A stretch of DNA of 52,318 bases from Bhargavaea cecembensis. GTDB lineage: Bacteria; Bacillota; Bacilli; Bacillales_A; Planococcaceae. How positions within the stretch are numbered: position 1 is the stretch's first letter; each line of letters starts with the position of its first letter. The DNA lies in assembly GCF_000826125.2 (NCBI RefSeq), contig NZ_LN651373.1, forward strand, positions 440,381-492,698, given 5' to 3'. The notes under the pieces are model-generated. The model searched no databases and had not been told where the DNA came from. It saw only the letters and a list, made by a program, of their open reading frames with translations. The position numbers and the translations under genes were made by a program. Positions 3,179 through 51,099 of the stretch are shown here, one piece after another.

Positions 3179-3253
3179 GTTATCTTTATCTGATGGAGCG
3201 TGATCTTTATCCGGAGAAACGTTATCTTTATCCCACAGAGCGTTATCTTTATC
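3179..3253. repeat. Array 1: 21-bp-period direct repeats, core GTTATCTTTATC
   Basis: Four copies of GTTATCTTTATC (one is GTGATC...) start at 3179, 3200, 3221 and 3242, exactly 21 bp apart, with variable 9-base spacers. The core is the reverse complement of the core of the array at 9578. The array fills the gap between the ycgT terminator and the rpiR promoter, and the region is not coding. The rest of the 3124-3504 gap holds the terminator, the promoter and the operator listed separately. Confidence 0.9.
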
Positions 3254-3336
3254 CGCCGACAGATTCGTGCAACCGCTTCCAATCCGCACGGCCGGCGATT
3301 CCGGGATTTCACCAAAATAAAATATTCAGAAATATA

Positions 3337-3366
3337 TTGCATACCGTCCGGCCGGCATGATATTGT
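3337..3366 (+). promoter_or_regulatory. SigA-type promoter of the RpiR/racemase operon
   Basis: TTGCAT (-35) is followed after 18 bases by TATTGT (-10). It is the only good promoter-like pair before the RpiR gene. Transcription would begin near 3373, immediately ahead of a perfect palindrome. Confidence 0.5.
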
Positions 3367-3376
3367 AAGAACAACT

Positions 3377-3392
3377 TGAAGGATTTCCTTCA
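3377..3392. promoter_or_regulatory. Candidate operator palindrome for the RpiR regulator
   Basis: TGAAGGA-TT-TCCTTCA is a perfect 7-2-7 inverted repeat at about +4 from the predicted start of transcription. A related half site (CCCTTCAA) follows at 3417-3424. The position suits repression by the adjacent RpiR-family protein. Binding is inferred. Confidence 0.5.
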
Positions 3393-3504
3393 TTCCCGCT
3401 CGGCACTGCAGGAATCCCTTCAAACAGAGGGTCACCAGTTCGGCCGTTGGCGGCGGCTTCTCTTTTCAAGAGGGATTTCATATCGTGTGAACGGAGTGAT
3501 GGGG

Positions 3505-6480: not shown

Positions 6481-7560
6481 ATGAAAGAAAGTATCCGAAT
6501 CGGAGCGGCATTCGCCGGACTCGTCATCGGCGCCGGCTTTGCCTCCGGGCAAGAGATTCTGCAGTTTTTCACCAGCTTCGGCTATTGGGGGATCGCCGGC
6601 TCGATCGTGGCCACGGCGCTGTTCGCATTCGTCGGCGCGAACATCACCCGGCTCGGGAGCCGCATGCGCTCGACTTCCCACAAGTCCGCCATCTACAAAA
6701 TATGCGGACGGCCGCTCGGCATGTTTGTTGACTTCGTCATCACGTTCTTCCTGTTCGGGGTGGCGGTCGTCATGTTCTCGGGAGCGGGCGCCCTGTTCCA
6801 CGAGCAATTCGGCATTCCGGCACCCGTCGGCAGTGCGATCCTCGTCCTCGCCGCCGTGCTGACCGTGCTATTGAACGTACAGAAAGTCATTTCGCTGATC
6901 AGTGCCGTCACGCCGTTTCTGATCCTGCTCGTTCTGGTGCTCGCCGGTTATTCGATCCTGACGGCAGACACATCCGCAGCGGAAATCGCCAGTCTCGCCG
7001 GCGAACAGGACGCAGCCGCGCCGAACTGGCTGCTGAGCGGCGCGCTGTATGTCTCGTTTAACATCGCGTGCAGCGCATCGATGCTCATGGTCATGGGCGG
7101 CACGGAGAAAAACCCGAAAGTCGCCGCAATGGGCGGAGCCATCGGGGGAGCGGTGCTCGGCCTGCTCATCCTGCTGCTGAACATCGCCATGCTGGCAAAG
7201 ATCGACGTGGTCGGCAGCGCATCGATGCCGACGCTCGCCCTGGCAGCCGAAATGTCGCCGGTGCTGTCTTACGTGATGGCGTTCGTGCTGCTCGGAATGA
7301 TCTACAATACGGCGGTCGGCATGCTGTATTCATTTACCGCGCGCATCACGGAACCGGGGACGGCCCGCTTCAAAGGAACCGTCATCACGGTCGGCGCCGC
7401 CGGCTTCGGGCTCAGCTTCATCGGATTCGTCAGCCTCGTCGGAACGCTGTACCCGATCACCGGATACCTTGGATTCACCCTGATCGGCGCCGTCTTCGTC
7501 CACTGGTTCCGCTCGGTTTACGGAAGAAAAGCGGCGGGCCCTGTGCTCACGAAAGGTTGA
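6481..7560 (+). CDS. YkvI-family membrane transporter (APC superfamily)
   Basis: The product (359 aa) is almost wholly hydrophobic with about ten membrane segments. It opens with RIGAAFAGLVIGAGFASGQEILQFF, the glycine-rich first helix typical of YkvI and related amino-acid/cation symporters of the LeuT/APC fold. RBS GGAGG precedes ATG at 6481. It follows the racemase operon in the same direction after a hairpin, so it is a candidate importer of the D-amino acids or acyl-amino acids handled there. The substrate is not readable from the sequence. Confidence 0.75.
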   Translation: MKESIRIGAAFAGLVIGAGFASGQEILQFFTSFGYWGIAGSIVATALFAFVGANITRLGSRMRSTSHKSAIYKICGRPLGMFVDFVITFFLFGVAVVMFSGAGALFHEQFGIPAPVGSAILVLAAVLTVLLNVQKVISLISAVTPFLILLVLVLAGYSILTADTSAAEIASLAGEQDAAAPNWLLSGALYVSFNIACSASMLMVMGGTEKNPKVAAMGGAIGGAVLGLLILLLNIAMLAKIDVVGSASMPTLALAAEMSPVLSYVMAFVLLGMIYNTAVGMLYSFTARITEPGTARFKGTVITVGAAGFGLSFIGFVSLVGTLYPITGYLGFTLIGAVFVHWFRSVYGRKAAGPVLTKG

Positions 7561-7590
7561 TCTTCAAAGTGCATATTTTTTATTATTAGA

Positions 7591-7615
7591 CCGGTCCTGG
7601 GAGGGGCCGGTTTTT
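7591..7615 (+). terminator. Intrinsic terminator after YkvI gene
   Basis: CCGGTCC...GGGGCCGG (one unpaired position) is followed by TTTTT. The 7561-7982 gap holds this terminator, a 21-bp array, and the nan promoter and operator. Confidence 0.75.
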
Positions 7616-7689
7616 GTGTGCGTTAGGAGGCTCCGTGCCGGCAGACGGATTCGGCCGTGTCCGGGCAGACGGGGCAGAGCGGAAGCGGG

Positions 7690-7752
7690 CTGGAGGCGTC
7701 GAATCTAAAGCTGGAGGCGTCGAATCTAAAGCTGGAGACGTCGAATCTAAAG
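7690..7752. repeat. Array 2: 21-bp tandem repeat, core GGCGTCGAATCTAAAG
   Basis: Three nearly identical 21-bp units start at 7690, 7711 and 7732. Unlike the other arrays, the whole unit is conserved, with one change (GGCG to GACG in unit 3), so it looks like the youngest. Flanking sequence has no clear gene. A 75-codon frame through it has no ribosome binding site and is rejected as coding. Confidence 0.9.
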
Positions 7753-7850
7753 AAGCCAAATCCGGGCCTGTCCTTCACCGATCCACCCGCTCCTCAATGC
7801 AGACCCCTCCCCAAGGTTATGATTGTCGATCGTCATTTTGATATAAGGTT

Positions 7851-7879
7851 TTGACACCAAAAACTCATCGTGTTATTCT
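7851..7879 (+). promoter_or_regulatory. SigA promoter of the nanE-nanA operon
   Basis: TTGACA, a 17-base spacer and TATTCT form a near-consensus promoter about 100 bp upstream of nanE. A dyad at 7881-7909 overlaps the expected transcription start. Confidence 0.8.
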
Positions 7880-7880
7880 T

Positions 7881-7909
7881 TGAACGTGAAATCGTTTTCT
7901 TTCAGTTCA
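7881..7909. promoter_or_regulatory. Candidate NanR operator
   Basis: The dyad TGAAC-G-TGAAA...TTTCA-GTTCA has ten-base arms (one extra base on the left) around an 8-base centre. It starts two bases after the -10 box. Repression of nan genes by RpiR-type NanR through such dyads is known in Bacillota. Here the regulator gene lies 6 kb downstream at 14011, and binding is inferred. Confidence 0.6.
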
Positions 7910-9577: not shown

Positions 9578-9653
9578 GATAAAGATAACGCTCTGTCCGA
9601 TAAAGATAACGTTCGCCCGGATAAAGATAACGTTCCGGCCGATAAAGATAACG
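9578..9653. repeat. Array 3: 21-bp-period repeats, core GATAAAGATAACG
   Basis: Four copies of GATAAAGATAACG start at 9578, 9599, 9620 and 9641, exactly 21 bp apart, with variable 8-base spacers. This is the inverse orientation of the core at 3179. It lies between nanA and its transporter, with no visible terminator, so it is probably transcribed as part of the nan operon. Confidence 0.9.
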
Positions 9654-9738
9654 CTTAACCCATTTCAGACCACGCGCTGCATCGGCAGCCGCGGGGGAGG
9701 CCTCGTTCCATCACACCAACTCCAGAGGGGGGAACCAA

Positions 9739-11235
9739 GTGGACGGAAAGTTCGCAGTCGTTGACTACATTATCCTGGTCGCTTATCTGCTGTTCATCCT
9801 GTATGTCGGGATCGCGGTCGCGAAAAAGGAGATGCAAGGCAAGGAATTCTTCAAGGGGGACGGCTCGATTCCGTGGTGGGTGACGTCGGTCAGTTTGTTC
9901 GCGACGCTCCTTAGCCCGATTTCGTTCCTGTCGCTCGCCGGGAACTCGTACCTCGGCAACTGGGAACTGTGGTTCGCACAGCTCGGGCTGTTCATCGCCG
10001 TACCGATCGCGATCTACCTGTTCCTGCCGGTTTACCGGAAACTGAACCTCGACACGGCTTATGAATACTTGGAGCGCCGGTTCGACGTGAAAATGCGCGT
10101 CATCGGCAGCCTGCTGTTCATCGTCTACCAGATCGGCCGTATGTCGATCATCATGTATCTGCCGGCAATCGCGCTGAGCGCGGTGACGGGGATCCATACC
10201 GTCATCATCATCCTCTTCATGGGCGTCATCGCGACGATCTATTCCGCATTCGGGGGCATCAAATCCGTCCTCTGGACCGACTTCATCCAGGGCGTCGTCC
10301 TGATCGGCGGCGGGATCTTCGCGCTCATCGTACTGCTGTTCTCGATCAACGGCGGCATCGGCGAAGTGTTCCGGACCGGCTCAGCGGACGGCAAGTTCTT
10401 CACGGACATGCCGCTGTTCGACCCGAACTTCGTCAATAGCAGCGTCCTGCTCCTCATCGTCGGCGCCGGGCTGTCGACCGCCTTCTCGTATATCTCGAGC
10501 CAGGACATGGTCCAGCGCTACCTGACGACCGACGACCTGAAGGAAATGAACAAAATGACGCTCATGAACGGACTGCTTTCCCTCGGGACGGCGACGCTCT
10601 TCTTCTTCATCGGGACTTCGCTGTACACATTCTATCTCCAGCAGGGCGGCCCGATGCCGGAGGGCAAGGGTGACCTGATCTTTGCGAACTACATCGTCTC
10701 CGAACTGCCTGCCGGAATTTCCGGCCTGCTGATCGCCGGCCTGTTCGCGGCCGGTCAGTCGACGCTTTCGACGGGACTGAACAGTGTGGCGACAAGCTGG
10801 ACGCTCGATATCCAGAAAGTCATCAAGCCGGGGATGAGCGACGCGAAAAGCACGAAAATCGCGCGGAACGTCTCGACGCTCGTCGGGATCTTCTCGATCG
10901 CGTTCGCCATCATCCTCGCCTATTCCGACGTGAGCTCCGCCTACGAATGGTTCAACGGCCTGATGGGCCTTGCGCTCGGAATCATCGGCGGGACATTCAC
11001 GCTCGGCGTCATGACGAAAAAAGCGAACTCGACAGGCGCGCTGCTCGGATTTGCGGCCACGACGCTCGTGGCCATCTACGTCTCGTACTTCACGAGCATT
11101 TCGCTCTGGGCTTATTCCCTCATCAACCTCGTCGCCTCGCTCTTCTTCGGCTACCTCTTCAGCCTGATCTTCAAAGGCAAGAGCAAGGCGGAGGAAGAAG
11201 AGCTGACGTTCTATGACCGGAATGCGCAAGCCTGA
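9739..11235 (+). CDS. Sodium:solute symporter, probable sialic acid transporter
   Basis: This SSS-family protein (498 aa) has about 13 predicted membrane helices, starting with VVDYIILVAYLLFILYVGIAV. The family stretch GDGSIPWWVTSVSLFATLLSPISFL follows, as does a sodium-site region (LIAGLFAAGQSTLSTGLNSVATSW). GTG at 9739 is chosen because AGAGGGGGGAA stands about six bases before it. It lies between nanA and nanK, as SSS-type sialic acid transporters often do, so Neu5Ac with sodium is the likely substrate. Specificity is inferred from position only. Confidence 0.85.
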   Translation: MDGKFAVVDYIILVAYLLFILYVGIAVAKKEMQGKEFFKGDGSIPWWVTSVSLFATLLSPISFLSLAGNSYLGNWELWFAQLGLFIAVPIAIYLFLPVYRKLNLDTAYEYLERRFDVKMRVIGSLLFIVYQIGRMSIIMYLPAIALSAVTGIHTVIIILFMGVIATIYSAFGGIKSVLWTDFIQGVVLIGGGIFALIVLLFSINGGIGEVFRTGSADGKFFTDMPLFDPNFVNSSVLLLIVGAGLSTAFSYISSQDMVQRYLTTDDLKEMNKMTLMNGLLSLGTATLFFFIGTSLYTFYLQQGGPMPEGKGDLIFANYIVSELPAGISGLLIAGLFAAGQSTLSTGLNSVATSWTLDIQKVIKPGMSDAKSTKIARNVSTLVGIFSIAFAIILAYSDVSSAYEWFNGLMGLALGIIGGTFTLGVMTKKANSTGALLGFAATTLVAIYVSYFTSISLWAYSLINLVASLFFGYLFSLIFKGKSKAEEEELTFYDRNAQA

Positions 11236-11262
11236 CCACTGTTGACCGGGAGGTGTTCTAGA

Positions 11263-12957
11263 TTGGAAATCAACCGGACGATCGAGACGGACGTTCTCGT
11301 GGCGGGCAGCGGACTCGCGGGCATCAAAGCCGCGAAGGAGCTGGCCGGGCAGGGACATCAAGTGTTGCTAGTGACGAAAATGAAAGTGGCGTCCGGCTCG
11401 AGTTTTTATCCGCTGAAGGCCTCGCTCGGCACCCAGGTGACGAAAGACCGGGCGGATGAGCAGGTGTTCCTTGAAGATATCGAAGAACTGAGCCGGGGGA
11501 TGCACCGGCGGGACCTCGCCGAGGCGTACGTCCGGGAAATCCCGGAGCGGGTGGAGGAGTATCCGGAGATCGGCGTGGATGCAAAAAAGCTGGAAGGGGA
11601 ACGGAAGGCCTGTTTCGCGCCTCATGCACGTGACATTTACCTTCTCGCTGACTGGGAGAAAATCCGCCGCAATGTCAGGGAGATCTTTGGCGGATACGAT
11701 AATCTTCGGGTGATGGAGCGCACGGTCGTCCTCACGCTGCTCAAAGACTCGGACCGGATCGCCGGGGCCGTCCTGCTGGATGCGGACAATGAGCTGGTGC
11801 TCGTCCGGTGCAAGGCGGCCGTGCTGGCGACGGGCGGCTTCGGGTCGATCTACAAGCACAACCTGAATCCGAAAGACGTCGACGGCTCCGGTCATATCCT
11901 CGCTCTGGAGGCGGGCGCCCGGCTCGTGAACATGGAGTTCATCCAGTTCATCCCGGGCATCACGAGCCCGAAATACAAGACGCTGTTCGGCGAGCATACG
12001 CTCACTTATTGCCGGGACATCGTCGATTCTGACGGGGAGAGCCTGCTCGACCCGGAACTGCCGGACGGACTGTCGAAGCGGGAGTGCCTCGACATCCGGA
12101 GCACCCACGGGCCGTTCACGCATTCGCTTGACTCCAAATGGTTCGATATTGCGATGATGAAGCGGATCGGGGATACGGGGAATGAAGATGGGTTCCGGCT
12201 CCTGTTCGATCCGGCCCTCTATGACAATGGAGAAGAGTTTTACACGGTTTATCTGGACTGGCTGAAAGAGCGGGGCATCGACCTCGCGCTCGACGAAATC
12301 CGGATCGCCCCGTTTGCGCATGCCAGCAACGGCGGTGTGTTCATCGATCTGGACGGACGTGCGGGGGTCCCCGGCCTTTATTCGATCGGGGAGCTCAGCT
12401 GCAACATCGAAGGCGCGAACCGGCTCGGCGGCAACTCGACGGGCGCCTGCATGGTGTTCGGCAAGCGGGCGGCGGATCATTGCGGCGAGTACGTCCGAAG
12501 CACCGGTTTCGGCCGGGCGGATGCCGGCATGGCGGAAGCCCGTCTGGCGGGCATGTTCGGCGAATTTGACCCGCATGTCTCCGGCGAAGAAGCGGAAGCC
12601 GCGGCGGAGCATGCACGCGAGGTCACGGAACGGATCCGGGAGATCCTCTGGTACAACGCCAATGTCGTCCGGAGTGAGGAAGACCTGTCGGCGGCGCTGT
12701 CCGAAATCCGGAAGCTCGGCGAGGGAGTCCGGGCCGGGCTGCTGTTCAGCCGTCCCGGTTTCCGGAAGCTCGCCGTGAGAACACGGAACTTCCTGAAGCT
12801 CTCGCAGATCCTCCTGCTCGCCATGACGGAGCGCCGTGAAAGCCGCGGAGCCCATTACCGGGAAGACTTCCCGCATGAAGACCCGGCGTTCGGCCGCCGC
12901 CTGTTCGTCTCCGTTTCTGAAGACGGAAGCCCGGATCTTGAATTCCGAAGCGAATAA
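11263..12957 (+). CDS. FAD-dependent oxidoreductase of the fumarate reductase/L-aspartate oxidase family, in the nan operon
   Basis: The 564-residue protein has an N-terminal dinucleotide fold (DVLVAGSGLAGIKAAKE, residues 11-27), a central ATGGFGSIYKHN segment, and near the C-terminus PFAHASNGGV followed by GANRLGGNSTGACMVFGKRAA. The last two correspond to the HYTxGG and ANRLGGNSL motifs of SdhA/FrdA/NadB proteins. A C-terminal helical domain follows, as in that family. TTG at 11263 is taken as start because GGGAGGTG is seven bases upstream; the frame also opens at 11242 without a site. It is 27 bp after the symporter and before a strong terminator, so it belongs to the nan transcript. No such enzyme is in the standard Neu5Ac pathway; the substrate is unknown. 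It is not NadB by context, since no nadA or nadC is near. Confidence 0.8.
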   Translation: MEINRTIETDVLVAGSGLAGIKAAKELAGQGHQVLLVTKMKVASGSSFYPLKASLGTQVTKDRADEQVFLEDIEELSRGMHRRDLAEAYVREIPERVEEYPEIGVDAKKLEGERKACFAPHARDIYLLADWEKIRRNVREIFGGYDNLRVMERTVVLTLLKDSDRIAGAVLLDADNELVLVRCKAAVLATGGFGSIYKHNLNPKDVDGSGHILALEAGARLVNMEFIQFIPGITSPKYKTLFGEHTLTYCRDIVDSDGESLLDPELPDGLSKRECLDIRSTHGPFTHSLDSKWFDIAMMKRIGDTGNEDGFRLLFDPALYDNGEEFYTVYLDWLKERGIDLALDEIRIAPFAHASNGGVFIDLDGRAGVPGLYSIGELSCNIEGANRLGGNSTGACMVFGKRAADHCGEYVRSTGFGRADAGMAEARLAGMFGEFDPHVSGEEAEAAAEHAREVTERIREILWYNANVVRSEEDLSAALSEIRKLGEGVRAGLLFSRPGFRKLAVRTRNFLKLSQILLLAMTERRESRGAHYREDFPHEDPAFGRRLFVSVSEDGSPDLEFRSE

Positions 12958-14868: not shown

Positions 14869-16047
14869 ATGAGAGAGATGAAGGCAATGCTGATCAGCAA
14901 CGCCAAAGTGTATGCGGAGGAAGAAACGCTCGAAGGCGGATTCATCGTGATCCGGGACGGAAAAATCGAGTCCGTCTCCGGCAGCCGGCCCGTGGATCTC
15001 CCCGACGGGACGGCCGAAATCGACGGCTCCTCGCTGAACGCCCTCCCCGGGTTCATCGATGGACACATCCACGGGGCGGACGGGGCGGACGTCATGGACG
15101 CGACACCCGAGACGCTCGGACGGATGGCGGATTTCCTGCCGGCCGAAGGGACGACCGCGTTCCTCGCCACGACGATCACCCAGTCAAAGGAAAACATCGA
15201 GCGGGCACTCCGCAATGTGGCGGATTACCCGGGAAGGCCCGGCCAGGCCGAAGTGGCCGGCATCCATCTGGAAGGCCCGTTTGTCGAGAAGTCGAAAGCC
15301 GGTGCGCAGCCCGCGGAGTTCATCATCGAGCCGGACGCGGACCTGTTCAGAAAATGGCAGGAGATCTCCGGCGGGAACATTCGCGCCGTGACGCTCGCAC
15401 CGGAGCATGACCCGAACGGCGAATTCATCGATATGCTGCGGAAGTCCGGCGTCGTCCCCTCCGCCGGGCATACCGGAACGGACTTCGCCGGCATGAAGCA
15501 AGCCGTCGCGCAAGGCGTCAGCCAAGTGACGCATCTGTGCAACGCGATGTCCGGCATCCATCATCGTGACATCGGGGTCATCGGCGCCGCCTTTCTGCTC
15601 CGTGGCCTGAAGGCCGAGCTGATCTCCGACGGCATCCACGTGTCGGACGAAATGCTCCAGCTCATCGTGGACAACGTGGGCACGGAGCGGCTCCTCCTCA
15701 TCACCGACTCGATGCGTGCGAAGGGCCTTCCGCCCGGCGGGTACGAACTCGGCGGGCAGCCTGTCCAAGTGACCGAAGACCGCGCCGTCCTCAACGACGG
15801 CACGCTCGCCGGCAGCATCCTGAAAATGAATGAAGCTGCCCGCCGCATGCTCTCCCTGGATGGAGTGACCATGCGGGACATCGCCGACATGGCCTCCGCC
15901 AATCCCGCCCGGCAGCTCGGCCTGTTCAATCGCAAAGGCAGCATCCGCGCCGGAAAAGACGCAGACCTCGTGCTCGTCGACGATGGACTGAACGTGCGCT
16001 GGACGATCTGCCGGGGCGAGGTGGCGTATGAAAGACATGAAGAGTAA
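14869..16047 (+). CDS. nagA: N-acetylglucosamine-6-phosphate deacetylase
   Basis: NagA removes the acetyl group from GlcNAc-6-P, the last step shared by Neu5Ac and GlcNAc breakdown before NagB. The 392-residue amidohydrolase has the metal motif PGFIDGHIHG (HxH), the bridging glutamate in GIHLEGPFV, histidines in AGHTGTDF and THLCNAM, and the catalytic aspartate in LITDSM. ATG at 14869 has GGAGG five bases upstream; ATG at 14878 is a possible start. It ends the second nan unit at a strong terminator. No nagB is present in the window. Confidence 0.95.
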   Translation: MREMKAMLISNAKVYAEEETLEGGFIVIRDGKIESVSGSRPVDLPDGTAEIDGSSLNALPGFIDGHIHGADGADVMDATPETLGRMADFLPAEGTTAFLATTITQSKENIERALRNVADYPGRPGQAEVAGIHLEGPFVEKSKAGAQPAEFIIEPDADLFRKWQEISGGNIRAVTLAPEHDPNGEFIDMLRKSGVVPSAGHTGTDFAGMKQAVAQGVSQVTHLCNAMSGIHHRDIGVIGAAFLLRGLKAELISDGIHVSDEMLQLIVDNVGTERLLLITDSMRAKGLPPGGYELGGQPVQVTEDRAVLNDGTLAGSILKMNEAARRMLSLDGVTMRDIADMASANPARQLGLFNRKGSIRAGKDADLVLVDDGLNVRWTICRGEVAYERHEE

Positions 16048-16070
16048 AAATAAATCTAGCATAGACAAAA

Positions 16071-16110
16071 AAAGATCCTCCATCAGAAACAAAGATGGAG
16101 GATCTTTTTT
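16071..16110 (+). terminator. Strong intrinsic terminator after nagA
   Basis: AAAGATCCTCCATC pairs fully with GATGGAGGATCTTT around a 9-base loop and ends in TTTTTT. It also marks the left edge of the AT-rich island. Confidence 0.95.
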
Positions 16111-16236
16111 CGAAGATAATTAAACAAACATTAAAAAATATTCTTTTAATTACGAATAGATTATGGTATTATCAAAATTAATTAAATAGAGTCATAATTT
16201 TTACGGTACTACTATTTGTTGATAGGAGCGGTTCAA

Positions 16237-16776
16237 GTGGATGAAATTTATCAGGAGATTAAGCGCTTGCGTCTAGAGCAGGGTTACACTCTCAAAGACT
16301 TAAGTGAGCGCACAGATCTATCAGTAAGTTTTCTTTCTCAAGTTGAAAGGGGGTCTTCCTCTCTTGCAATTACTTCATTGAAGAAGATTGCGGACGCCTT
16401 CGGAGTTCCTATTACCCAATTTTTTCAGACTGAGGCCAATCACAACTATCTGCTGAAAAGAGAAGAGAGAAAGCCTTTCAAGATGGAGGGCTCCCCAAAT
16501 GTCTATGTCAGGTTAAACGGAGAATTTGGGGGACGGAATCTGGAACCAATGGTCGTAAAGTTGGCACCAAAAGAAAAACAGATGCAGGACTCTCATCCTG
16601 GAGAAGAGTTCTACTACATTATGGAAGGGGCAGCTTTGTTCACTGTTGGCGGCAAGGAGTATTTTATGCGAGAAGGAGATTCTATCCATTTTCCTTCTAC
16701 TGTTCCGCATGGTTGGGAGAATCCGCTTAATGAAGAAACCACCATCATTAGCGTCGTAACACCGGTTATCTTCTGA
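16237..16776 (+). CDS. XRE-family regulator with C-terminal cupin sensor domain
   Basis: This 179-residue protein joins an N-terminal XRE helix-turn-helix (LRLEQGYTLKDLSERTDLSVSFLSQVERGSSSLAITSLKKIA) to a C-terminal cupin barrel (HPGEEFYYIMEGAALFTVGGKEYFMREGDSIHFPSTVPHGWENP) that keeps the usual histidines and glutamate. Such proteins usually control an adjacent catabolic operon with a small-molecule ligand. GTG at 16237 is the start: AGGAG lies eight bases before it, and the frame upstream lacks a site. The 125-bp upstream gap is very AT-rich with a weak TATTAT -10 at 16167. It lies 81 bp before the hydantoinase operon and is probably its regulator. Confidence 0.88.
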   Translation: MDEIYQEIKRLRLEQGYTLKDLSERTDLSVSFLSQVERGSSSLAITSLKKIADAFGVPITQFFQTEANHNYLLKREERKPFKMEGSPNVYVRLNGEFGGRNLEPMVVKLAPKEKQMQDSHPGEEFYYIMEGAALFTVGGKEYFMREGDSIHFPSTVPHGWENPLNEETTIISVVTPVIF

Positions 16777-16857
16777 ACTGCCGGATGACTGATGCAATGG
16801 ACCATTGACACGCACTACGGAAGGAAATTGTAAATTGAATGATAGGAGGAAGCAATT

Positions 16858-18903
16858 ATGAGAGTAGCAACGGATATTGGCGGTACGTTTACCGATCTGG
16901 TGTACGTGGACGCAGAAGGAAATGTAGGGGTGGCTAAAAGTCCGACAACACCTCCCAACTTTGAGCAGGGTGTGATCGACGTCATTAAAAAAAGCGAAGT
17001 TGATCCTGTCTCAATAGAAACATTCATTCATGGAACAACAGTGATCATTAATGCCTTAACGGAGCGGAAGGGTGTAAAAACAGGGTTAATTACAACAGCC
17101 GGATTTCGGGATGTGATGGAGATTGCACGCGGGAACCGTCCGGATTTATTCAATCTCCGTTATGAAAAACCGGCACCATTCGTCGAACGTTACTTGAGAC
17201 AAGAGGTGCCGGAGCGGATGAATCAGCTCGGAGAAGTTATTGTCCCGCTGGATGAGAAGAGGATCGAGGAACTGGTTGCATACTTTAAAAAAGAAAAAGT
17301 TGACGCGATCGCTATCGCCTATCTTCATGCCTATAAAAACCCTGAACATGAAATCCGTACAATCGAGTTAATTCAAGAGCTTTGGCCGGAAGTGGCAGTG
17401 ACCGCTTCGCATGAAGTAACAAAAGAATGGCGCGAGTATGAACGGACGAACACGGCTGTTCTGAATTCTTATGTTAAGCCGATCGCCTCTTCCTATATTG
17501 ATCGTCTGAACGGGAGACTAGGAGAGCTTGGAGCAGGTGAACTGAGATATATTATGCAGTCGAATGGCGGGACGACTACGTTTGAACAAGCCAAGAAGAC
17601 CCCGATCAACATGGTCGAGTCAGGTCCAGTCGCAGGAATTTACGGATCTGCATATCTTGGCGAAATCATCGGTGAGAAGAATATCATTGCTTTCGATATC
17701 GGCGGAACAACGGCTAAATGCTCCTTGATTGCCGAAGGGGAAGTCAAAGTCTCTACTGATTACTATATCGAGAAAGATGAGTATAAAGCGGGCTATCCGA
17801 TCAAGACACCTGTTGTTGATATCGTAGAAATCGGTAACGGCGGGGGCTCCATCGCATGGATCGATGGGGGCGGCGCACTGAAGGTGGGTCCTCAATCCGC
17901 CGGTTCTGTGCCCGGTCCGGTGGCATATGGACAAGGCGGAATGGAACCTACGACAACAGATGCTAATTTGCTGACAGGGCGCCTCTCTCCGAAAAACTTT
18001 GATTATGACGTAGACATGGACAAGGTCCGGGAAGCTATTCAGACGAAAGTGGCAGATCGTTTCGGGATGAACCCGGAGGAGGGCGCACTTGGGATTATCC
18101 GCATTGCCAACTCCAATATGCTGAATGCCCTTAAGCTGATTTCAGTCCGGAAGGGGTACGATCCGCGCGACTTTGTACTCGTAGCGTTTGGAGGCGGTGG
18201 GTCGATGCATGCTCCAGCGCTTGCACGTGAGCTGGGTGTTACAAAAGTCATCGTGCCTGTAGCCTCTCCTGTCTTTTCAGCTTGGGGAATGCTCATGACC
18301 GATCTTCGGCATGATTATATCCAGACTAATATTGCCCGAGTTTCAGGGCTCGATTTGAACGAGTTCAACCGGGAGTGGGAGGCGTTGGCGCAAACGGCAA
18401 CAGCTCAGTTTGCGGAAGAAAATATTGCACCGGATCATATTCGAATGATGCGATTCGCCGATATGCGTTACGCAGGCCAGGAGCACACTGTCAAAGTTCC
18501 TATCTCATCCGGAAAAATTACACCTGAAACCATTCGCCAGCTTGAAAAAGATTTCCATTCACTTCATGAGACAAATTACACATTTAAGCTGGAAGACGCG
18601 GAAACGGAAATTGTCAACCTGCACATGACCGCTTTTGGATCTGTCGAAAAGCCGGAACTGAAAAAGCTGGAGGCCGATGGCAGCACGATGGAGGATGCGC
18701 TCAAGGAAACTCGCCCTGTGTATTACGAAGAAAAGGGGTGGGTGACTACCAATGTCTACGATCGAATGAAACTCCAGCCGGGAATGGCATTTGAAGGACC
18801 TGCAATCATTGAAGAACAGGCGGCCGTGACAGTTATCTATCCTGAACAAAAAGCATCCATTGACCTATATGGAAACCTGATCATTGAAACGGAGGTACGC
18901 TAA
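16858..18903 (+). CDS. hyuA: Hydantoinase/oxoprolinase family protein, subunit A
   Basis: The 681-residue protein is the ATP-binding subunit of the HyuA/HyuB (N-methylhydantoinase/5-oxoprolinase/acetone carboxylase-like) family. It starts with RVATDIGGTFTDLVYVD, the ASKHA-type phosphate loop, and contains FIHGTTVIINALTERKG, ESGPVAGIYG and the second phosphate motif IIAFDIGGTTAKCSLI near residue 278, followed by VEIGNGGGSIAW and VAFGGGGSMHA. RBS AGGAGGAAG precedes ATG at 16858. It is the first gene of an operon with HyuB, a small cupin and an NCS1 permease. The exact cyclic amide or ketone substrate cannot be read; the NCS1 permease favours a hydantoin- or nucleobase-like ring. Confidence 0.9.
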   Translation: MRVATDIGGTFTDLVYVDAEGNVGVAKSPTTPPNFEQGVIDVIKKSEVDPVSIETFIHGTTVIINALTERKGVKTGLITTAGFRDVMEIARGNRPDLFNLRYEKPAPFVERYLRQEVPERMNQLGEVIVPLDEKRIEELVAYFKKEKVDAIAIAYLHAYKNPEHEIRTIELIQELWPEVAVTASHEVTKEWREYERTNTAVLNSYVKPIASSYIDRLNGRLGELGAGELRYIMQSNGGTTTFEQAKKTPINMVESGPVAGIYGSAYLGEIIGEKNIIAFDIGGTTAKCSLIAEGEVKVSTDYYIEKDEYKAGYPIKTPVVDIVEIGNGGGSIAWIDGGGALKVGPQSAGSVPGPVAYGQGGMEPTTTDANLLTGRLSPKNFDYDVDMDKVREAIQTKVADRFGMNPEEGALGIIRIANSNMLNALKLISVRKGYDPRDFVLVAFGGGGSMHAPALARELGVTKVIVPVASPVFSAWGMLMTDLRHDYIQTNIARVSGLDLNEFNREWEALAQTATAQFAEENIAPDHIRMMRFADMRYAGQEHTVKVPISSGKITPETIRQLEKDFHSLHETNYTFKLEDAETEIVNLHMTAFGSVEKPELKKLEADGSTMEDALKETRPVYYEEKGWVTTNVYDRMKLQPGMAFEGPAIIEEQAAVTVIYPEQKASIDLYGNLIIETEVR

Positions 18904-18904
18904 C

Positions 18905-20647
18905 ATGGCAACGATTAAAGAGCAGTCAATCGATCCGTTTACGCTGGAAATCGTAAAAGATTCGCTTGTGGCAATTGGTGAGGAGATGTTCCACACATTG
19001 GCCCGCACTTCAATGAGTCCCGTTATTTACGAGGTTCTTGACTATGCAAGCGGATTAACCGACGCAAAAGGACAGCTTCTTACTCAGGGAAATGGGGTTA
19101 CGGGTTTCATCGGAATGCTGACGTTTATGGTCAAAGAAACTCTGAACAAGTTCGGCGGGGAAGGAGATCTGAAGCCAGGGGATGTCATCATTATTAATGA
19201 CTCTTATGGCGGAGGCGGATCCCACCTTTCCGATGTTGGGTTTGTTATGCCGATCTTCGCAGAGGGAGAACTTGTTGCTTTCGCTGCCAACAAAGCTCAC
19301 TGGACAGATGTCGGCGGAAAAGACCCCGGCTCTTTCAGTAACGATGCTACGGATATCTATCAAGAAGGCCTTCAACTTCCTTGTGTAAAACTTTATGAAG
19401 AAGGCCGGCTCAATCAAGCGGTCATTGATATGATCAAGGTAAACATTCGTTTTCCGGATCTCTCCCTCGGAGACCTGTGGGCACAGGTAGCCGCCATTCG
19501 GACAGGAGAAAAGCGGGTTAAAGAACTTTGCGAGAAAAATGGAGTTAAAACAGTCAAGGCAGCAATCGTGAATTATTTGGATCACGGGGAGCAGATGGCA
19601 CGCAAGGAACTGGCAAGGCTGCCTAAAGGAGAATTTTTTGCTGAAGATTTCATAGACGATGACGGTTTCGGAAATGGACCATTTAATGTTTGCGTGAAAG
19701 TCACAATAACGGATGATAAATTCATCTGTGATTTCCGTGGAACTCATGCTCAGGTGCCGGGTCCGGTAAACGTAACGTACACTGGACTGGTTTCTGCGGT
19801 CAGGACCGTTTTCCTGGCAATTACGAACCCGTCTCAGGACGTGAACGATGGTGTCTTCCGCCCGCTCGAAATTATTACGGAGCCAGGATCGATTGTATCA
19901 GCCGAACGTCCGGCCCCTGTCTCCATCTACTGGGAAGCCATGCAGGGCGGCGCTGATGTTGTCATGCAGGCATTGGCTCCGCATCTGCCGGATCGGCTGC
20001 CGGCGGGACAGCTGCTGTCCGTTTGCGCAGTCACTCTCAGCGGTAATCACCATGTGAATGGTGAGCCATTCCTCATCGTTGAACCTTCTGCCGGCGGCTG
20101 GGGAGCAGCCCGCGGACAGGACGGAGCCCGTGGCCAGTTTTGTATTGGCGACGGTGAAACGTATAACGTGCCTGTTGAAGTGGCAGAAACACGGTACGGC
20201 GTCATGATTGATGAATATAGTTTGAAGACGGATGGGAAAGGTGCCGGTGAGTATATCGGAGGCGCCGGTGTTATCCGCAGTTACCGGGCAATGACAGATG
20301 GCCAAGCTGTATCAGCCACATTTGGCCGAAACAAGTTCCATCCATGGGGATTGAATGGCGGCGAAAAGGGTTCACCGAATGAATTTATTATTGAGAAAAA
20401 AGATGGAACAACAGACGGTCCGTTCGGAATGTATCCGAGATACCCTCTGAATAAGGGGGACGTCGTAAAGTTGATGACTGCCACAGGAGGCGGGTATGGC
20501 GATCCGCTGAAACGTCCTGCGGAGCAGGTGGCACGCGACGTAAAGAACGGTTATATGACGCTTGGACAAGCCGAGGAAAAATACGGCGTTAAAGTGAACC
20601 CGGGAACATTTGAAGTCGAAACTGTAACGGAAAAGAGGAAAGCATAA
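18905..20647 (+). CDS. hyuB: Hydantoinase B/oxoprolinase family protein, subunit B
   Basis: The partner subunit (580 aa) opens with IDPFTLEIVKDSLVAIGEEMFHTLARTSMSPVI, the hallmark N-terminus of HyuB proteins. It continues with GDVIIINDSYGGGGSHLSDVGFVMPIF, NKAHWTDVGG, and the glycine-rich C-terminal segment GGAGVIRSYRAMT...ATGGGYGDPL. It completes the ATP-dependent ring-opening or carboxylating enzyme with HyuA. ATG at 18905 follows GGAGGT, which overlaps the end of hyuA; the gap is one base. Its own stop overlaps the cupin start (TAATG), so the genes are translationally coupled. Confidence 0.92.
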   Translation: MATIKEQSIDPFTLEIVKDSLVAIGEEMFHTLARTSMSPVIYEVLDYASGLTDAKGQLLTQGNGVTGFIGMLTFMVKETLNKFGGEGDLKPGDVIIINDSYGGGGSHLSDVGFVMPIFAEGELVAFAANKAHWTDVGGKDPGSFSNDATDIYQEGLQLPCVKLYEEGRLNQAVIDMIKVNIRFPDLSLGDLWAQVAAIRTGEKRVKELCEKNGVKTVKAAIVNYLDHGEQMARKELARLPKGEFFAEDFIDDDGFGNGPFNVCVKVTITDDKFICDFRGTHAQVPGPVNVTYTGLVSAVRTVFLAITNPSQDVNDGVFRPLEIITEPGSIVSAERPAPVSIYWEAMQGGADVVMQALAPHLPDRLPAGQLLSVCAVTLSGNHHVNGEPFLIVEPSAGGWGAARGQDGARGQFCIGDGETYNVPVEVAETRYGVMIDEYSLKTDGKGAGEYIGGAGVIRSYRAMTDGQAVSATFGRNKFHPWGLNGGEKGSPNEFIIEKKDGTTDGPFGMYPRYPLNKGDVVKLMTATGGGYGDPLKRPAEQVARDVKNGYMTLGQAEEKYGVKVNPGTFEVETVTEKRKA

Positions 20648-20976: not shown

Positions 20977-21001
20977 AATTTAAAAAATGGGGGATCGTGA
21001 A

Positions 21002-25257: not shown

Positions 25258-25279
25258 AAAAAACCGCGGAAAGCGGGCT
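25258..25279 (-). terminator. Expression-platform terminator of the purine riboswitch
   Basis: On the minus strand CCGC-TTTCC-GCGG is followed by TTTTTT, starting about 11 bases after the 3' strand of P1. The stem is short but the U-run is strong. Its position is that of the transcription-terminating platform in xpt-type leaders. Confidence 0.6.
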
Positions 25280-25287
25280 TCTGATAG

Positions 25288-25357: not shown

Positions 25358-25375
25358 AGTTATTAGTTCTAAGCC

Positions 25376-28003: not shown

Positions 28004-28035
28004 CGGCATCCGGAGGATCATTGGCGCTCTGGTTC

Positions 28036-28116
28036 AGATACACAACGTTTCATATGAGATCAACAACGTTTCAGGCCAGATCAATAACGTTTCAGCTGAG
28101 ATACACAACGCTTTGT
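28036..28116. repeat. Array 4: 21-bp-period repeats, core AGATMAAYAACGTTTCA
   Basis: Four units start at 28036, 28057, 28078 and 28099, exactly 21 bp apart. The first three keep ACGTTTCA and the fourth decays to ACGCTTTG. The core shares GAT...AACGTT with the 9578 array. The 28004-28431 gap otherwise holds a terminator (28219) and a promoter (28373). Confidence 0.88.
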
Positions 28117-28218
28117 CCCATAGACGCAAGATCGATCGCAATTGATCCCGAGTGAGTGGCAATCAGAGACAGAACGGAGCTTCATATCCATCAGCTTAGC
28201 TTCCAATAATCCACCGCG

Positions 28219-31819: not shown

Positions 31820-31845
31820 ATCGAATCCTGGCCGCACGACCTCTT

Positions 31846-32306
31846 ACTATCTATTCGGGGGCTGGTTCTATCTATTCAAGTGATGATTCTATCTATTCAA
31901 GTGATGATTCTATCTATTCGAGTGCTCATTCTATCTATTCATCTTCCATGCCGCGGCCAGCAGTTCCCAGCCGCCTCTCCGATACACGACCTCTTACTAT
32001 CTATTCGAGGGCTGGTTCTATCTATTCGAGTGCTCATTCTATCTATTCATCTTCCATGCCGCGGCCAACCGTTCCCAGCCGCCTCTCCGACACACGACCT
32101 CTTACTATCTATTCGAGGGCTGATTCTATCTATTCGGAGGCTCATTCTATCTATTCATCTTCCATGCCGCGGCCAGCAGTTCCCAGCCGCCTCTCCGACA
32201 CACGACCTCTTGCTATCTATTCGAGTGCTGGTTCTATCTATTCGAGGGCTCATTCTATCTATTCGGAGGCTCATTCTATCTATTCACCCTCACATGCTAT
32301 CTATTC
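31846..32306. repeat. Array 5: 16 units of 21-bp-period TATCTATTC repeats in four blocks
   Basis: TATCTATTC cores start at 31848, 31869, 31890, 31911, 31932; 31998, 32019, 32040; 32106, 32127, 32148; and 32214, 32235, 32256, 32277, 32298. Spacing within blocks is always 21 bp and between blocks always 66 bp. The linkers between blocks are near-identical and contain CCATGCCGCGGCCA and CCGCCTCTCCGA. The core is the reverse complement of that in the 51002 array. Both 21 and 66 are multiples of three, so two long frames stay open, but neither has a ribosome binding site or sensible composition. The rest of the 31723-32419 gap is the terminator and the formamidase leader. Confidence 0.92.
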
Positions 32307-32419
32307 ACGCGCGCTGCCCGGATCTGCTTCCTGGCCGCAGGACCCGTGGCTTTGGCCACAGGGCGCCGATCGGTGATAAGATAGAATAAGAGTCTGAAAA
32401 TTCGAAAGGGGAGCTGGAC

Positions 32420-43519: not shown

Positions 43520-43833
43520 AACTTGCGTCACTTGTGGCAAAACTCTTCTTACTCGTTTACCTAAGTTAGGATTTTATACTGAAATGGAAGAGTTGGGCCT
43601 CGAAGTGGAAGAGTTGGGCCTCGAAGTGGAAGAATTGGCCTTCGAAGTGGAAGAGTTGCATCGTTTGCGATGGAACTCTCCTCACTCGCGGGGAAACTCT
43701 CCTCACTCGGCCCCAAACTCTCCTCACTCGCAGCGAAACTCTCCTCACTCGTCCTCACAAGTTAGGATCTCACACTGAAATGGAAGAGTTGGTCCTCGAA
43801 GTGGAAGAGTTGCCCCTCGAGATGGAAAAGTTG
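43520..43833. repeat. Array 6: 13 units of 21-bp period in alternating orientation
   Basis: Reverse-orientation cores (AACTCTCCTCACTCG and variants) start at 43520, 43541; forward cores (GAAGTGGAAGAGTTG) at 43581, 43602, 43623, 43644; reverse at 43674, 43695, 43716, 43737; forward at 43777, 43798, 43819. Spacing inside every block is exactly 21 bp. Both reverse-to-forward junctions are 40 bp from core to core and share AAGTTAGGAT and ACTGAAATGGAAG. The two core types are related as imperfect reverse complements. The array fills the gap between the convergent MDR gene and the RlmA gene (43450-43858). Confidence 0.9.
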
Positions 43834-43858
43834 CACTCTGGGCCGAAGTCTCAATCCG

Positions 43859-48276: not shown

Positions 48277-48279
48277 TAC

Positions 48280-50934
48280 GTGAGGAAAGTATTGAAATTC
48301 AGATGGCCGATCTTCATTGTCCTGCTCGTCGTGACGGTCGTCCTGTTCATTTTGGCGCCGGATCTTGCGAAGCAGGCCGAAGATGCGGGCAACATGCAGC
48401 TGTCGGACACGGCCGATTCCCAGCGCGCCGCGGATCTGCTTGAGAAAGTGGGGGCCTCGGACGAGACGATTTCCCTCGTCTACGCGCTGGACCAGCCGGC
48501 CGATGACGGGAAAAAGACGGCGATTTCCGATGCCGCCAACGAGATCAAGGCGATCGGGGATCCGGTCACCGAAGTTCTGGACCCGTTTGAAAACGAAGAG
48601 ATGGAAAAACAGCTCGTTTCCGAAGACGGAAAAACAATCCTCGTGCCGGTCACCGTGGACGGATCGGACGAGGAAATCGTCGAGCTCGCCGATGAGATCA
48701 AGTCGGATATCCTGACCGGCGACGACGAGGTCTACATCACCGGGGAAGCGATCATCAACAACGACGTGAACATCAGTGCGCAGGAAGGGCTGAAAAAGAC
48801 GGAGCTGATCACGGTCGGCCTGATCTTCGGCCTGCTGCTCATCGTGTTCCGTTCTCCGGTCACGCCGCTCATCCCGCTTCTCGCAGTCGGGATTTCGTAC
48901 CTGCTCAGCCAGTCGCTCGTCGCATTCTTCGTCGACTGGTTCGGCTTCCCGGTATCGAATTACACACAGATCTTCCTCGTCGCCATCCTGTTCGGACTCG
49001 GGACGGACTACTGCATCCTGCTGCTGAGCCGGTACAAGGAAGAACTGCTCGCCGGACATGAAGTCGAAGAAGCGGTCGTCAATACGTACAAGACGGCGGG
49101 CCGGACGCTGTTCATCAGCGCGCTTGCCGTGTTCATCGGATTTGCGGCGATCGGCTTCGCGCAGTTCCCGATCTTCAAGTCGGCAGTCGCGGTGGCGGTC
49201 GGGATCGCGGTTCTGCTGCTCGTCCTGACAACGGTCGTGCCGCTGTTCATGATGCTGCTGAAAGACAAGCTGTTCTGGCCGGCGAAAGGCAGCGCGTCGC
49301 ATAAAGACAGCAAGCTGTGGATCGGCTTCAGCAAGCTGTCCGTCATGCGCCCGCTCCTGTCGATGGGAGTCGTGGCGATCATCACGATTCCGCTCCTGCT
49401 GACATATGACAACGACATTTCGTTCAACACGATCGACGAGATCGACAGCAGCCGGGAATCGGTCATGGGCCTCAACCGGATCTCCGACGCATTCGGCGAA
49501 GGGGATTCCCTGCCGGTCGGCGTCATCCTGAAAAAAGACGACAAGATCGTGAACGAAGCTGACGTCACGTACCTCGAGCGCATCAGCCAGGACCTTGAAA
49601 AGGTGGACGGCGTGAAAAGCGTTCGGACGATCACACGCCCGACCGGTGAGATCATCGGCGACCTGTACGTCGACCGGCAGATCTCCCTCATGGCGGACGG
49701 TCTGGACGATGCCATCCAGGGTCTCCGCGACGTTCAGGACGGCCTCGGCCAAGCGGGCGGTGGGCTCGACCAAATCATCGGTCAGCTTCCGTCCGGCAGT
49801 GCCGCAGCGGGCGGCGGCGACGGACTCCGCCAGGCTGCAAGCGGCATCAGCCAGATCAACGGCCAGCTCGGCCAGATCGCCGGCGGCCTCGGCCAGGGCA
49901 TGCCGGCGGCACAGGCGGCCGGCGGGCTCAACGCCCTGAGCGGGGAACTTGCGAAAATCGGCACTTCCCTCGAAGGCGCAGCCGGCCAGCTGGATGCTTC
50001 CGGCGGGCAGATCGGTGCCTTGTCCGGCGGTCTCGGCGAACTGTCCAAGGGGGTCGCGGCTTCTTCGGAAGGTCTCACCCAGATTGCGGACGGACTGGAC
50101 GACCTGTCCGGCACGATGCACGACATGGGCGATACGAAAAGCGTCCGCGACACCGGCATGTTCGTCCCCGCCGGCACGTTCGAAAATGAAGAGTTCGAAC
50201 CGGTGATCGACCGCTACACGATCGACGGGGAATCCGGCATCCTCATGGAAGTTATCCTGGATGAGGATCCGTACTCCCGCGAGGCGATCGGCACCGTCGA
50301 GGACCTGAAGGATTCTGTCCGGAAGTCGGTGATCGGGACGCCGTTTGAAGACGCGGACCTGTACTTCGACGGCATTTCCGTCATGAACTCCGACCTCCAG
50401 GACATCTCGTCCTCCGACTTCAGCCGGACGGTCACGATCATGCTTGTCGGCCTGTTCGTCGTGCTGTTCATCCTGTTCCGCTCGGCGATCATGCCGCTTT
50501 ATATGATCGGCTCGCTCCTGCTCACGTACTACACATCGGTCTCCGTCACCGAGCTCATCTTCGTGAACTGGCTCGGCTACGACGGCATCAGCTGGGCGGT
50601 CCCGTTCTTCGGATTCATCATGCTGATCGCACTCGGCGTGGACTACTCGATCTTCCTGCTCGACCGGTTCCGCGAAGAGAGCCTCAACCGGCTGAACACC
50701 CGGGAAGCACTCACGACCGCAATGGCGAAGATGGGCACGGTCATCATCACGGCCGCCATCATCCTCGCCGGCACGTTCGGCGCGATGATGCCGTCCGGCG
50801 TGCTCAGCCTCGTGCAGATCGCGACCATCGTCATCACCGGCCTCCTGCTGTACGGCCTCATCATCCTGCCGCTCCTCATCCCGGCGATCACCGTATCGTT
50901 TGGACGCGGCGTCTGGTGGCCGTACCGGGGCTGA
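48280..50934 (+). CDS. ydgH: MMPL/RND-family membrane exporter (YdgH-like)
   Basis: The transporter (884 aa) has the two-half MMPL plan: one N-terminal helix (FRWPIFIVLLVVTVVLFILAP), an external domain, a five-helix bundle with ILFGLGTDYCILLLSRYKEE (the GxxxDY motif of the proton path), a second external domain, and a second bundle with MLIALGVDYSIFLLDRFREE. Between residues 460 and 625 the external domain carries a Gly/Gln/Leu-rich helical repeat (GLDQI, GLGQ, GLGELSKG and similar) predicted to form a long coiled stalk. GTG at 48280 has AAGGAG nine bases before it. Length matches B. subtilis YdgH. Cargo unknown, likely lipids or drugs. Confidence 0.9.
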   Translation: MRKVLKFRWPIFIVLLVVTVVLFILAPDLAKQAEDAGNMQLSDTADSQRAADLLEKVGASDETISLVYALDQPADDGKKTAISDAANEIKAIGDPVTEVLDPFENEEMEKQLVSEDGKTILVPVTVDGSDEEIVELADEIKSDILTGDDEVYITGEAIINNDVNISAQEGLKKTELITVGLIFGLLLIVFRSPVTPLIPLLAVGISYLLSQSLVAFFVDWFGFPVSNYTQIFLVAILFGLGTDYCILLLSRYKEELLAGHEVEEAVVNTYKTAGRTLFISALAVFIGFAAIGFAQFPIFKSAVAVAVGIAVLLLVLTTVVPLFMMLLKDKLFWPAKGSASHKDSKLWIGFSKLSVMRPLLSMGVVAIITIPLLLTYDNDISFNTIDEIDSSRESVMGLNRISDAFGEGDSLPVGVILKKDDKIVNEADVTYLERISQDLEKVDGVKSVRTITRPTGEIIGDLYVDRQISLMADGLDDAIQGLRDVQDGLGQAGGGLDQIIGQLPSGSAAAGGGDGLRQAASGISQINGQLGQIAGGLGQGMPAAQAAGGLNALSGELAKIGTSLEGAAGQLDASGGQIGALSGGLGELSKGVAASSEGLTQIADGLDDLSGTMHDMGDTKSVRDTGMFVPAGTFENEEFEPVIDRYTIDGESGILMEVILDEDPYSREAIGTVEDLKDSVRKSVIGTPFEDADLYFDGISVMNSDLQDISSSDFSRTVTIMLVGLFVVLFILFRSAIMPLYMIGSLLLTYYTSVSVTELIFVNWLGYDGISWAVPFFGFIMLIALGVDYSIFLLDRFREESLNRLNTREALTTAMAKMGTVIITAAIILAGTFGAMMPSGVLSLVQIATIVITGLLLYGLIILPLLIPAITVSFGRGVWWPYRG

Positions 50935-50955
50935 TCAAAATAAGAAAAGCTGAAA

Positions 50956-50991
50956 CCGGACTGTCCGAATTGGGACGGTCCGGCTTTTTTT
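50956..50991 (+). terminator. Intrinsic terminator after ydgH-like gene
   Basis: CCGGACTGTCC pairs with GGACGGTCCGG (one mismatch) around a short loop, followed by a run of eight T after one C. Confidence 0.9.
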
Positions 50992-51001
50992 GTTCGTTGG
51001 T

Positions 51002-51099
51002 GAATGGATAGAAAGCAGGGGTGAATAGATAGAAAGGGGTGATGAGTAGATAGAAAGAGGTGGTGAATAGATAGAAAGAGGCCACGAATAGATAGAAAG
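51002..51099. repeat. Array 7: 21-bp-period repeats, core GAATAGATAGAAAG
   Basis: Five copies of GAATAGATAGAAAG (variants GAATGG and GAGTAG) start at 51002, 51023, 51044, 51065 and 51086, exactly 21 bp apart with variable 7-base spacers. The core contains the reverse complement of the core of the 31848 array. It lies between the ydgH terminator and pxpB. Confidence 0.92.

Follow-up and report, generated by a model that had tools for sequence, protein, structure and literature searches.

Several kinds of short, regularly repeated DNA are known from bacteria and their plasmids, and in this report we compare with them a set of repeat arrays found in a 52,318-nucleotide stretch of the Bhargavaea cecembensis genome (assembly GCF_000826125.2, contig NZ_LN651373.1, positions 440,381 to 492,698), referred to throughout as the window. 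In plasmid iterons and centromere arrays a conserved core is directly repeated about every two helical turns, with protein bound side by side. The repeats of clustered regularly interspaced short palindromic repeat (CRISPR) loci are ~25-40 bp long, with spacers of similar length. Repetitive extragenic palindromic (REP) elements and bacterial interspersed mosaic elements (BIMEs) are associated with REP-associated tyrosine transposases (RAYTs). Four published sources describe REP elements as short, dispersed, intergenic and lying after gene ends (PMC3733652); BrickBuilt of Porphyromonas gingivalis as 23-nt tandem units with conserved and non-conserved positions at 19 intergenic loci, with a unit number that varies by strain and a leader and tail with terminal inverted repeats, of one sequence (PMC4596501); the TAACTGA repeats of Beggiatoaceae as contiguous heptamer direct repeats, mostly just upstream of start codons (PMC4679880); and, in a survey of 7006 prokaryotic genomes, periodic interspaced repeats that lack a CRISPR annotation (PMC6344855). 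The genome around the window comprises 3.16 Mb in four contigs, and the arrays of the window consist of units that follow one another at exactly 21 bp. We give an even chance to the reading that they are clusters of DNA sites for one or more putative sequence-specific proteins, which would bind cooperatively and separate transcription units.

Arrays occupy seven places in the window. Under set mismatch limits they contain 48 units, and one degenerate unit completes the 49 counted in the initial annotation of this DNA; as that annotation claimed, the start-to-start distance is 21 bp in every block of all seven arrays, with no exception.

Array A, 3178..3253 (units 3178-3241), minus strand: four units with core GATAAAGATAACG on the minus strand, past the terminator of the gene ending at 3123.
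Array B, 7689..7752 (units 7698-7740), plus strand: three nearly identical 21-bp units, past the terminator at 7590-7611.
Array C, 9578..9655 (units 9578-9641), plus strand: four units with core GATAAAGATAACG, in a 172-bp gap between a DHDPS-family gene and an SSF symporter gene.
Array D, 28034..28129 (units from 28044), minus strand: three units and one degenerate unit, with a core like GAAACGTTGTGTATCT (minus strand).
Array E, 31841..32314 (units 31847-32297), minus strand: 16 units in four blocks, with core GAATAGATAGAA (minus strand).
Array F, 43520..43836 (units 43520-43820), no single strand: seven forward and six reverse units in four blocks, between convergent genes.
Array G, 50999..51102 (units 51002-51086), plus strand: five units with core GAATAGATAGAAAG, past the terminator at 50953-50986.

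Arrays A and C have a core in common, on opposite strands; core GAATAGATAGAA is common to E and G; and the four blocks of F alternate in orientation and carry the related cores GAAGTGGAAGAGTT and GAGTGAGGAGAGTT. The annotation's view that the arrays have different cores was therefore only partly right. The blocks of E sit within ~108-bp super-repeats and are 66 bp apart, whilst same-strand blocks of F are 133 bp apart; recent local duplication is evident in B and in the super-repeats of E. Some arrays consist of inverted pairs, with either one core or two related ones (window 43520-43836; L105 15581-15753), and the array at 51002 has a second copy 1472 bp on, at C3:492854, just beyond the right edge of the window.

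A typical array holds ~3-6 copies of a core of 12-17 bp, with spacers of 4-9 bp. The constant repeats, variable spacers and fixed period are reminiscent of CRISPR, from which the arrays differ in these short repeats and spacers, in their dispersed loci and in having several repeat words. CRISPR was rejected on size, the whole unit being only 21 bp, and on cas1 (PF01867), which had no match in this genome (G000) or in any of its seven congeners (it was present in 5 of the 25 genomes searched, and 9 of 14 control genomes were positive). REP and BIME elements resemble the arrays in being short, dispersed, intergenic and located after gene ends; unlike them, the units here are not palindromic, and are direct repeats with a fixed 21-bp step. 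Hairpin-forming palindromic units were not found (12 single-orientation window-array folds had z-scores from -2.0 to +1.9), and the RAYT domain Y1_Tnp (PF01797) was likewise without a match in G000 and all seven congeners, the same search being positive in 10 of 25 genomes, all outside the genus, and in 5 of 14 controls; a REP or BIME identity was accordingly rejected. The arrays are like iterons and plasmid centromere arrays in that a conserved core recurs in direct orientation about every two helical turns, and unlike them in lying at many chromosomal places with many core words. A plasmid iteron or origin array was rejected: a Pfam search of the 14 genes flanking the seven window arrays, one of which had no match, returned no replication initiator and no replication or partition gene.

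BrickBuilt, a minisatellite within a miniature inverted-repeat transposable element (MITE), also has tandem intergenic units with conserved and variable positions and a varying unit number, but the arrays here have many cores and flanks without common sequence. At 15 loci of the GATAAAGATAACG core there was no common leader or tail, and no 10-mer was common to more than two loci within 150 bp of flank, which led us to reject a MITE-borne minisatellite. The TAACTGA repeats similarly form many short intergenic direct-repeat sets in distant taxa; unlike them, the present arrays have spacers and a 21-bp step and are located after gene ends. It is unlikely, though conceivable, that the arrays belong to a family described under another name and beyond the reach of our literature search. 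The survey in PMC6344855 mentions interspaced periodic repeats that lack a CRISPR annotation and 'remain to be explored', and most subscription papers and all bioRxiv preprints were outside the search. Against this, the full-text search, judged by titles and abstract openings, gave nothing of this design and no account of arrays phased at 21 bp from these bacteria, and Rfam at its gathering threshold matched only a purine riboswitch in the window, and none of the arrays.

The 21-bp step dominates the window. Pairs of recurring 9-mers number 204 at distance 21, 96 at 42 and 55 at 63, and other distances up to 80 have at most nine pairs each. At one threshold, 13 period-21 segments were found in the real window and none in ten block-shuffled windows; one of the 13 (49821-49896) is inside an MMPL gene and is not an intergenic array. 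The genome was sampled as 20 stretches of 20 kb, of which 15 (300 kb) were picked without regard to known matches, and the latter were scanned for maximal segments at periods from 10 to 63. The initial annotation had staked its proposal on a genome-wide excess of 21-bp spacing, and this is what the scan gave: 26 segments at period 21, a few low-scoring ones of which may be coding, 21 at 42 and 16 at 63, versus three at period 20, one at 22 and at most three at each remaining period. By extrapolation, the whole genome would contain a few hundred period-21 segments.

The sampled genome has at least ten core words, many of which begin with GA on one strand. For ten cores we counted all copies in the window and the 20 stretches, on both strands, with one mismatch allowed, no spacing assumed and assembly duplicates removed. 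Same-strand neighbours <30 bp apart were at exactly 21 bp in 128 of 128 cases; steps of 19, 20, 22 or 23 bp were not seen in this genome's sample. The other 15 spacings up to 130 bp were 42 (five), 66 (three), 61 (two) and 32, 41, 43, 63 and 87 bp (one each). Only 12 of 197 copies were solitary, i.e. without a same-strand copy within 130 bp (by core: 0/30, 1/45, 0/14, 1/16, 0/20, 6/26, 2/22, 0/5, 2/10 and 0/9), and seven of these 12 were within or adjoining a weaker period-21 segment. A first count, still with the assembly duplicates, gave 140/140 spacings of 21 bp and 15/216 solitary copies.

The duplicates in question are near-identical array pairs 0.9-1.5 kb apart. They were considered as mobile cassettes, a possibility that we rejected on finding a single N between the copies at all four places checked (L085 4612-5977; L088 6687-7853; L095 4500-6762; L100 8216-10831), and are treated as contig-end overlaps of the assembly. 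The identical stretches at C3:29339/30298 and the second copy of the 51002 array look like further overlaps of this kind. Five second copies were removed before the position, core/spacer column, terminator and ten-core counts; the pair counts for GATAAAGATAACG and GAATAGATAGAA below still include duplicates, and the 300-kb period count used none of the four overlap stretches.

Conserved columns cluster as one run when set against column permutation: across 45 arrays, 20 had p < 0.05 and the Fisher p was 3e-18. The claim of a conserved core with a variable spacer thus stood for the arrays taken together; the split does not reach significance in D, in the first F block or in G when each is taken singly, and array B is too uniform for the test. 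To look at the spacers directly we used the GATAAAGATAACG family, for which 30 loci fetched of 63 matches gave 15 distinct arrays with 49 complete units. Its unit has 13 nearly fixed bases, then C/T, T and mostly T/C, then loose positions rich in guanine and cytosine (GC); the two positions right after the core are C or T with one exception. Spacers of adjacent units are identical at 3.56 of 8 positions (34 pairs) versus 4.05 of 8 between different loci (1115 pairs). Since adjacent spacers are no more alike than spacers of different loci, the spacer sequence is randomised whilst its length is held. The arrays are therefore phased, with a spacing fixed in helical turns and a spacer sequence that varies.

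These data bear on what we regard as the main rival, a tolerated parasite kept in register by some process: a dispersed minisatellite, selfish or neutral, that recombination or some enzyme copies from one intergenic site to another, that gains and loses 21 bp at a time and that is tolerated after gene ends. We hold this to be possible, but clearly less probable than phased binding sites. Neutral decay should strike all 21 positions alike, yet the conserved columns cluster; 1-bp length changes would be expected, yet the ten cores showed no step next to 21 bp; and the flanks of the 15 GATAAAGATAACG loci share nothing resembling element ends. A neutral slippage minisatellite was rejected on the clustered columns and on the adjacent GATAAAGATAACG units. 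Copying, by contrast, is seen: C3:29k and C3:472k have two spacers exactly in common, and in L088 two arrays ~4 kb apart have three identical units in common in a different order. A copying process certainly acts on the arrays too. A variant core with a triple base (GATAAAAGCAACG or close) is found in units of three loci (L001, L005 and L029), hinting at exchange between loci or at a second recognised form.

We also compared the arrays among congeners. GATAAAGATAACG pairs (≤2 mismatches) number 63 in this genome, duplicates included, and were absent from all seven congeners; elsewhere there was only a low-complexity match in 1 of 143 other family genomes. GAATAGATAGAA pairs number 77 here, again with duplicates, 16 in the nearest congener (G003) and 0 in the six others. 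Those six have 21-bp arrays with a different core set, GAATGACGAAAC, GAGTTTGAAGATTA and more. Cores thus belong to a species or clade. In G003 a degenerate array of five units lies upstream of the same next gene as array G, and the gap that holds array C, 172 bp here, is only 20 bp in four congeners (L031, L033, L034 and L035; L112 has the same gap values as L034 and is probably the same genome), as a dispersed minisatellite could produce. The unit number of orthologous arrays differs mostly by 21-bp steps, with an occasional 20-bp step; at one locus it is 5, 4 and 1 among congeners, and at another G002 and G006 differ by one unit. Exact gain and loss of 21-bp units, which also favours a minisatellite, is the part of the annotation's slippage-driven repeat family that survives; the likeness expected of adjacent spacers is lacking in the GATAAAGATAACG family, and one core is present at 15 or more loci.

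Cores outlast spacers in the same comparison. Over nine pairs of orthologous arrays at seven loci, core differences were found at 44 of 517 sites and spacer differences at 153 of 517 (p 2e-18), and at loci 1, X and Z, whose register was judged clear afterwards, the values were 18/286 and 70/293. That cores are kept across species while spacers drift argues against a minisatellite.

The position of the arrays relative to genes was determined for 41 array clusters from the window and the 20 stretches, using a home-made codon-usage gene caller. One cluster (L081:12994) overlaps a called open reading frame (ORF); the other 40 are outside called genes bar overlaps of a few bases, in line with the intergenic placement first proposed. 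The clusters comprise 23 in tandem, 14 in convergent and two in divergent gaps, with two unassigned (the ORF-overlapping cluster being one of these), whilst all 221 gaps of at least 60 bp divide into 125 tandem, 45 convergent and 51 divergent. Divergent gaps are avoided (2/39 clusters versus 51/221 gaps, p 0.003; p 0.015 by gap length) and convergent gaps mildly favoured (p 0.014). Avoidance of divergent, promoter-bearing gaps would also suit a tolerated minisatellite. The annotation had asked for the position relative to gene ends, and in tandem gaps the median distance of an array is 58 bp from the upstream stop and 106 bp from the next start (p 0.02). A terminator was found only before the array in 11 of the 23 tandem cases, on both sides in one, only after in one and on neither side in 10; for 54 gene-end/array pairs the corresponding counts were 20, seven, nine and 18. 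The purine-rich strand has no fixed relation to transcription (9 versus 6 among 15 tandem arrays with clear bias). Location after gene ends, often after terminators and on either strand, points to action on DNA.

The same counts speak to an RNA-level role, in which transcribed arrays would be tandem sites or sponges for an RNA-binding protein or a small RNA. The initial annotation had left this open; we now consider it improbable. The C/T equivalence at the two positions beside the GATAAAGATAACG core would fit pairing with G, a terminator only on the array's far side from the gene occurs in 9/54 gene-end/array pairs, and for the inverted array F folding is strong on the minus strand (z -5.2 and -4.0), with z -2.3 and -0.4 on the plus strand. 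Yet single-orientation arrays, which make up 12 of the 16 window folds, show no consistent excess of folding, the purine-rich strand has no consistent orientation to the upstream gene, and in tandem gaps the terminator precedes the array in 12/23 cases and follows it in 2/23. RNA binding also gives no reason for a fixed helical step.

As 21 bp is seven codons, protein-coding heptapeptide repeats are a further alternative, and a very remote one. The period is a multiple of three, stop-free frames average 3.46 of 6 versus 2.62 in column-shuffled versions (52 arrays), and there is the one cluster that overlaps an ORF. The near-complete exclusion of clusters from called genes tells against coding, as do the lack of a Pfam match for the three ORFs over arrays E and F and the steps of 20 bp in two genomes of other genera, which break the frame. 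In G057 the word ATTTGCG has steps of 20 bp (12) and 21 bp (11); in G129 there are ATTTGCG arrays of period 20, together with CGTGCG steps of 21 (three) and 20 bp (two). Such mixtures keep the helix phase and break the reading frame, so helix phase fits better than codons. Together with a step held at 21 bp while spacers randomise, and with cores that outlast their spacers, they favour the idea of two helical turns put forward at the outset.

To assess how far such arrays extend, we surveyed other taxa with one stretch of ~20 kb per locus (4 kb for L045), a sample in which arrays can be missed. Period-21 segments were found in 10 of 22 named Bacillales loci (L031-L051 and L070), distributed as follows.

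Bhargavaea ginsengi: 1 locus.
Planococcus: 3 loci.
Sporosarcina: 2 loci.
Lentibacillus: 4 loci.

At the survey threshold, and with one stretch each, none was found in the congeners L033-L035, Halobacillus, Oceanobacillus, Mesobacillus, two Bacillus species and four further Sporosarcina. Genomes of the same family from genera g2, g7, g10, g11, g14, g18 and g35 have arrays with other words. Of 20 family stretches, 17 were not chosen for a known match; of these, six had a period-21 segment (that of g16 may be coding) and 11 had none, the latter including one stretch consisting only of N and one 3 kb long. A CGTGCGR triple occurs in 14/200 family genomes and 5/19 genera, versus 2/200 for a reversed-pattern control, and in 2/200 class genomes, both from the same family as the window. 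Among 36 other families of the class (one stretch of ≤20 kb each) a period-21 segment was found in 0/16 and 4/20. Only L205 of these four may be a true array, L196 being low-complexity and L193 and L203 resembling coding repeats. The plasmid collection gave no match for array E or the long G016 array, nor the phage collection for the latter, in searches with BLAST (basic local alignment search tool), whose low-complexity filter may hide repeats. Amongst viral contigs none had a GAATAGATAGAA pair and four had a CGTGCGA triple.

Some arrays in other genera are long, up to ~1 kb, as in L048 (Lentibacillus kapialis; 690-1500, 2686-3056 and 7470-7900) and L137 (G016; 11202-11938 and 18883-19868), both with a 42-bp alternation of two unit types and GTGCG-like words. 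L049 (Planococcus sp.) has a ~0.9-kb array at 1568-2475, with a ~103-bp super-repeat of near-21-bp units.

Phased binding sites, the reading to which we return, would work as follows. Proteins would occupy neighbouring cores along a single face of the helix, with one protein or dimer for every two turns; the sequence of the spacer would matter little and its length would be fixed; and a single core would be of little use, which would explain why solitary cores are rare. Lying between genes, beyond a gene end and often past the terminator, the bound block would separate neighbouring transcription units, presumably by halting read-through or retaining supercoils. Selection for sites bound repeatedly on the same face would account for the fixed step, the rare solitary cores, spacers that drift, cores that change slowly within a clade and the 20/21-bp mixtures. 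Protein binding, cooperativity and an insulating role are what we infer from this pattern, and a nucleoid or transcription-factor 'scaffold', as first suggested, may be part of it. That a single genome has so many core words suggests several paralogous binders, or one family whose specificity changes.

Several points weigh against phased binding sites. No binding protein or bound state is known, and no phyletic-profile search for a trans-acting gene was made; at least ten unrelated-looking cores in one genome need several binders, and the neighbouring genes are of varied function with no hint of a regulon. The ten counted cores were selected for occurring in arrays. A core/spacer split is not significant alone in 25/45 arrays, the last E block as well as D, the first F block and G being among them. 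The nine pairs of the core/spacer contrast were hand-picked, others being left out (e.g. the G004/G005 array at G005 120175); the contrast can be inflated by register errors, the near-match core mask and branches common to pairs, its p-value assumes independent sites, and there is no such contrast at locus Y (8/40 versus 9/42). Gene calls and terminators come from home-made scripts and not from annotation, and with 10/23 tandem arrays lacking a terminator on either side, some arrays are probably transcribed.

Other features of the window were recorded. Arrays D and E flank a pair of neighbouring genes (28426-30015 and 30103-31722) with the same PRiA4_ORF3, DUF7309 and DUF6930 domains. Among named loci, the best relatives of the symporter gene at 9739-11235 come from Bhargavaea (four loci) and from Bacillus wudalianchiensis (one locus at 88% protein identity). 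The riboswitch is at 25274-25374 on the minus strand (Rfam RF00167, 63 bits). A stretch at ~16000-22000 is low in GC (five 1-kb bins at 42-50% versus 58% for the whole window) and array-free, and is possibly acquired DNA.

The presence of arrays in several Planococcaceae genera and in Lentibacillus suggests a shared, apparently undescribed genome component. More speculatively, and with appreciably less confidence than we attach to the binding sites themselves, each Planococcaceae species might have private, fast-changing words that would work only when repeated in helical register at its gene ends, each read by its own member of a putative protein family. This would be a genome-wide system of insulators or chromosome addresses, with co-evolution of words and readers and replacement of words as species diverge. 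If a protein reads the arrays, they would amount to a widespread system for organising or insulating DNA, one whose specificity changes rapidly. Even as tolerated parasites, their strict spacing and rare solitary copies demand a mechanism.

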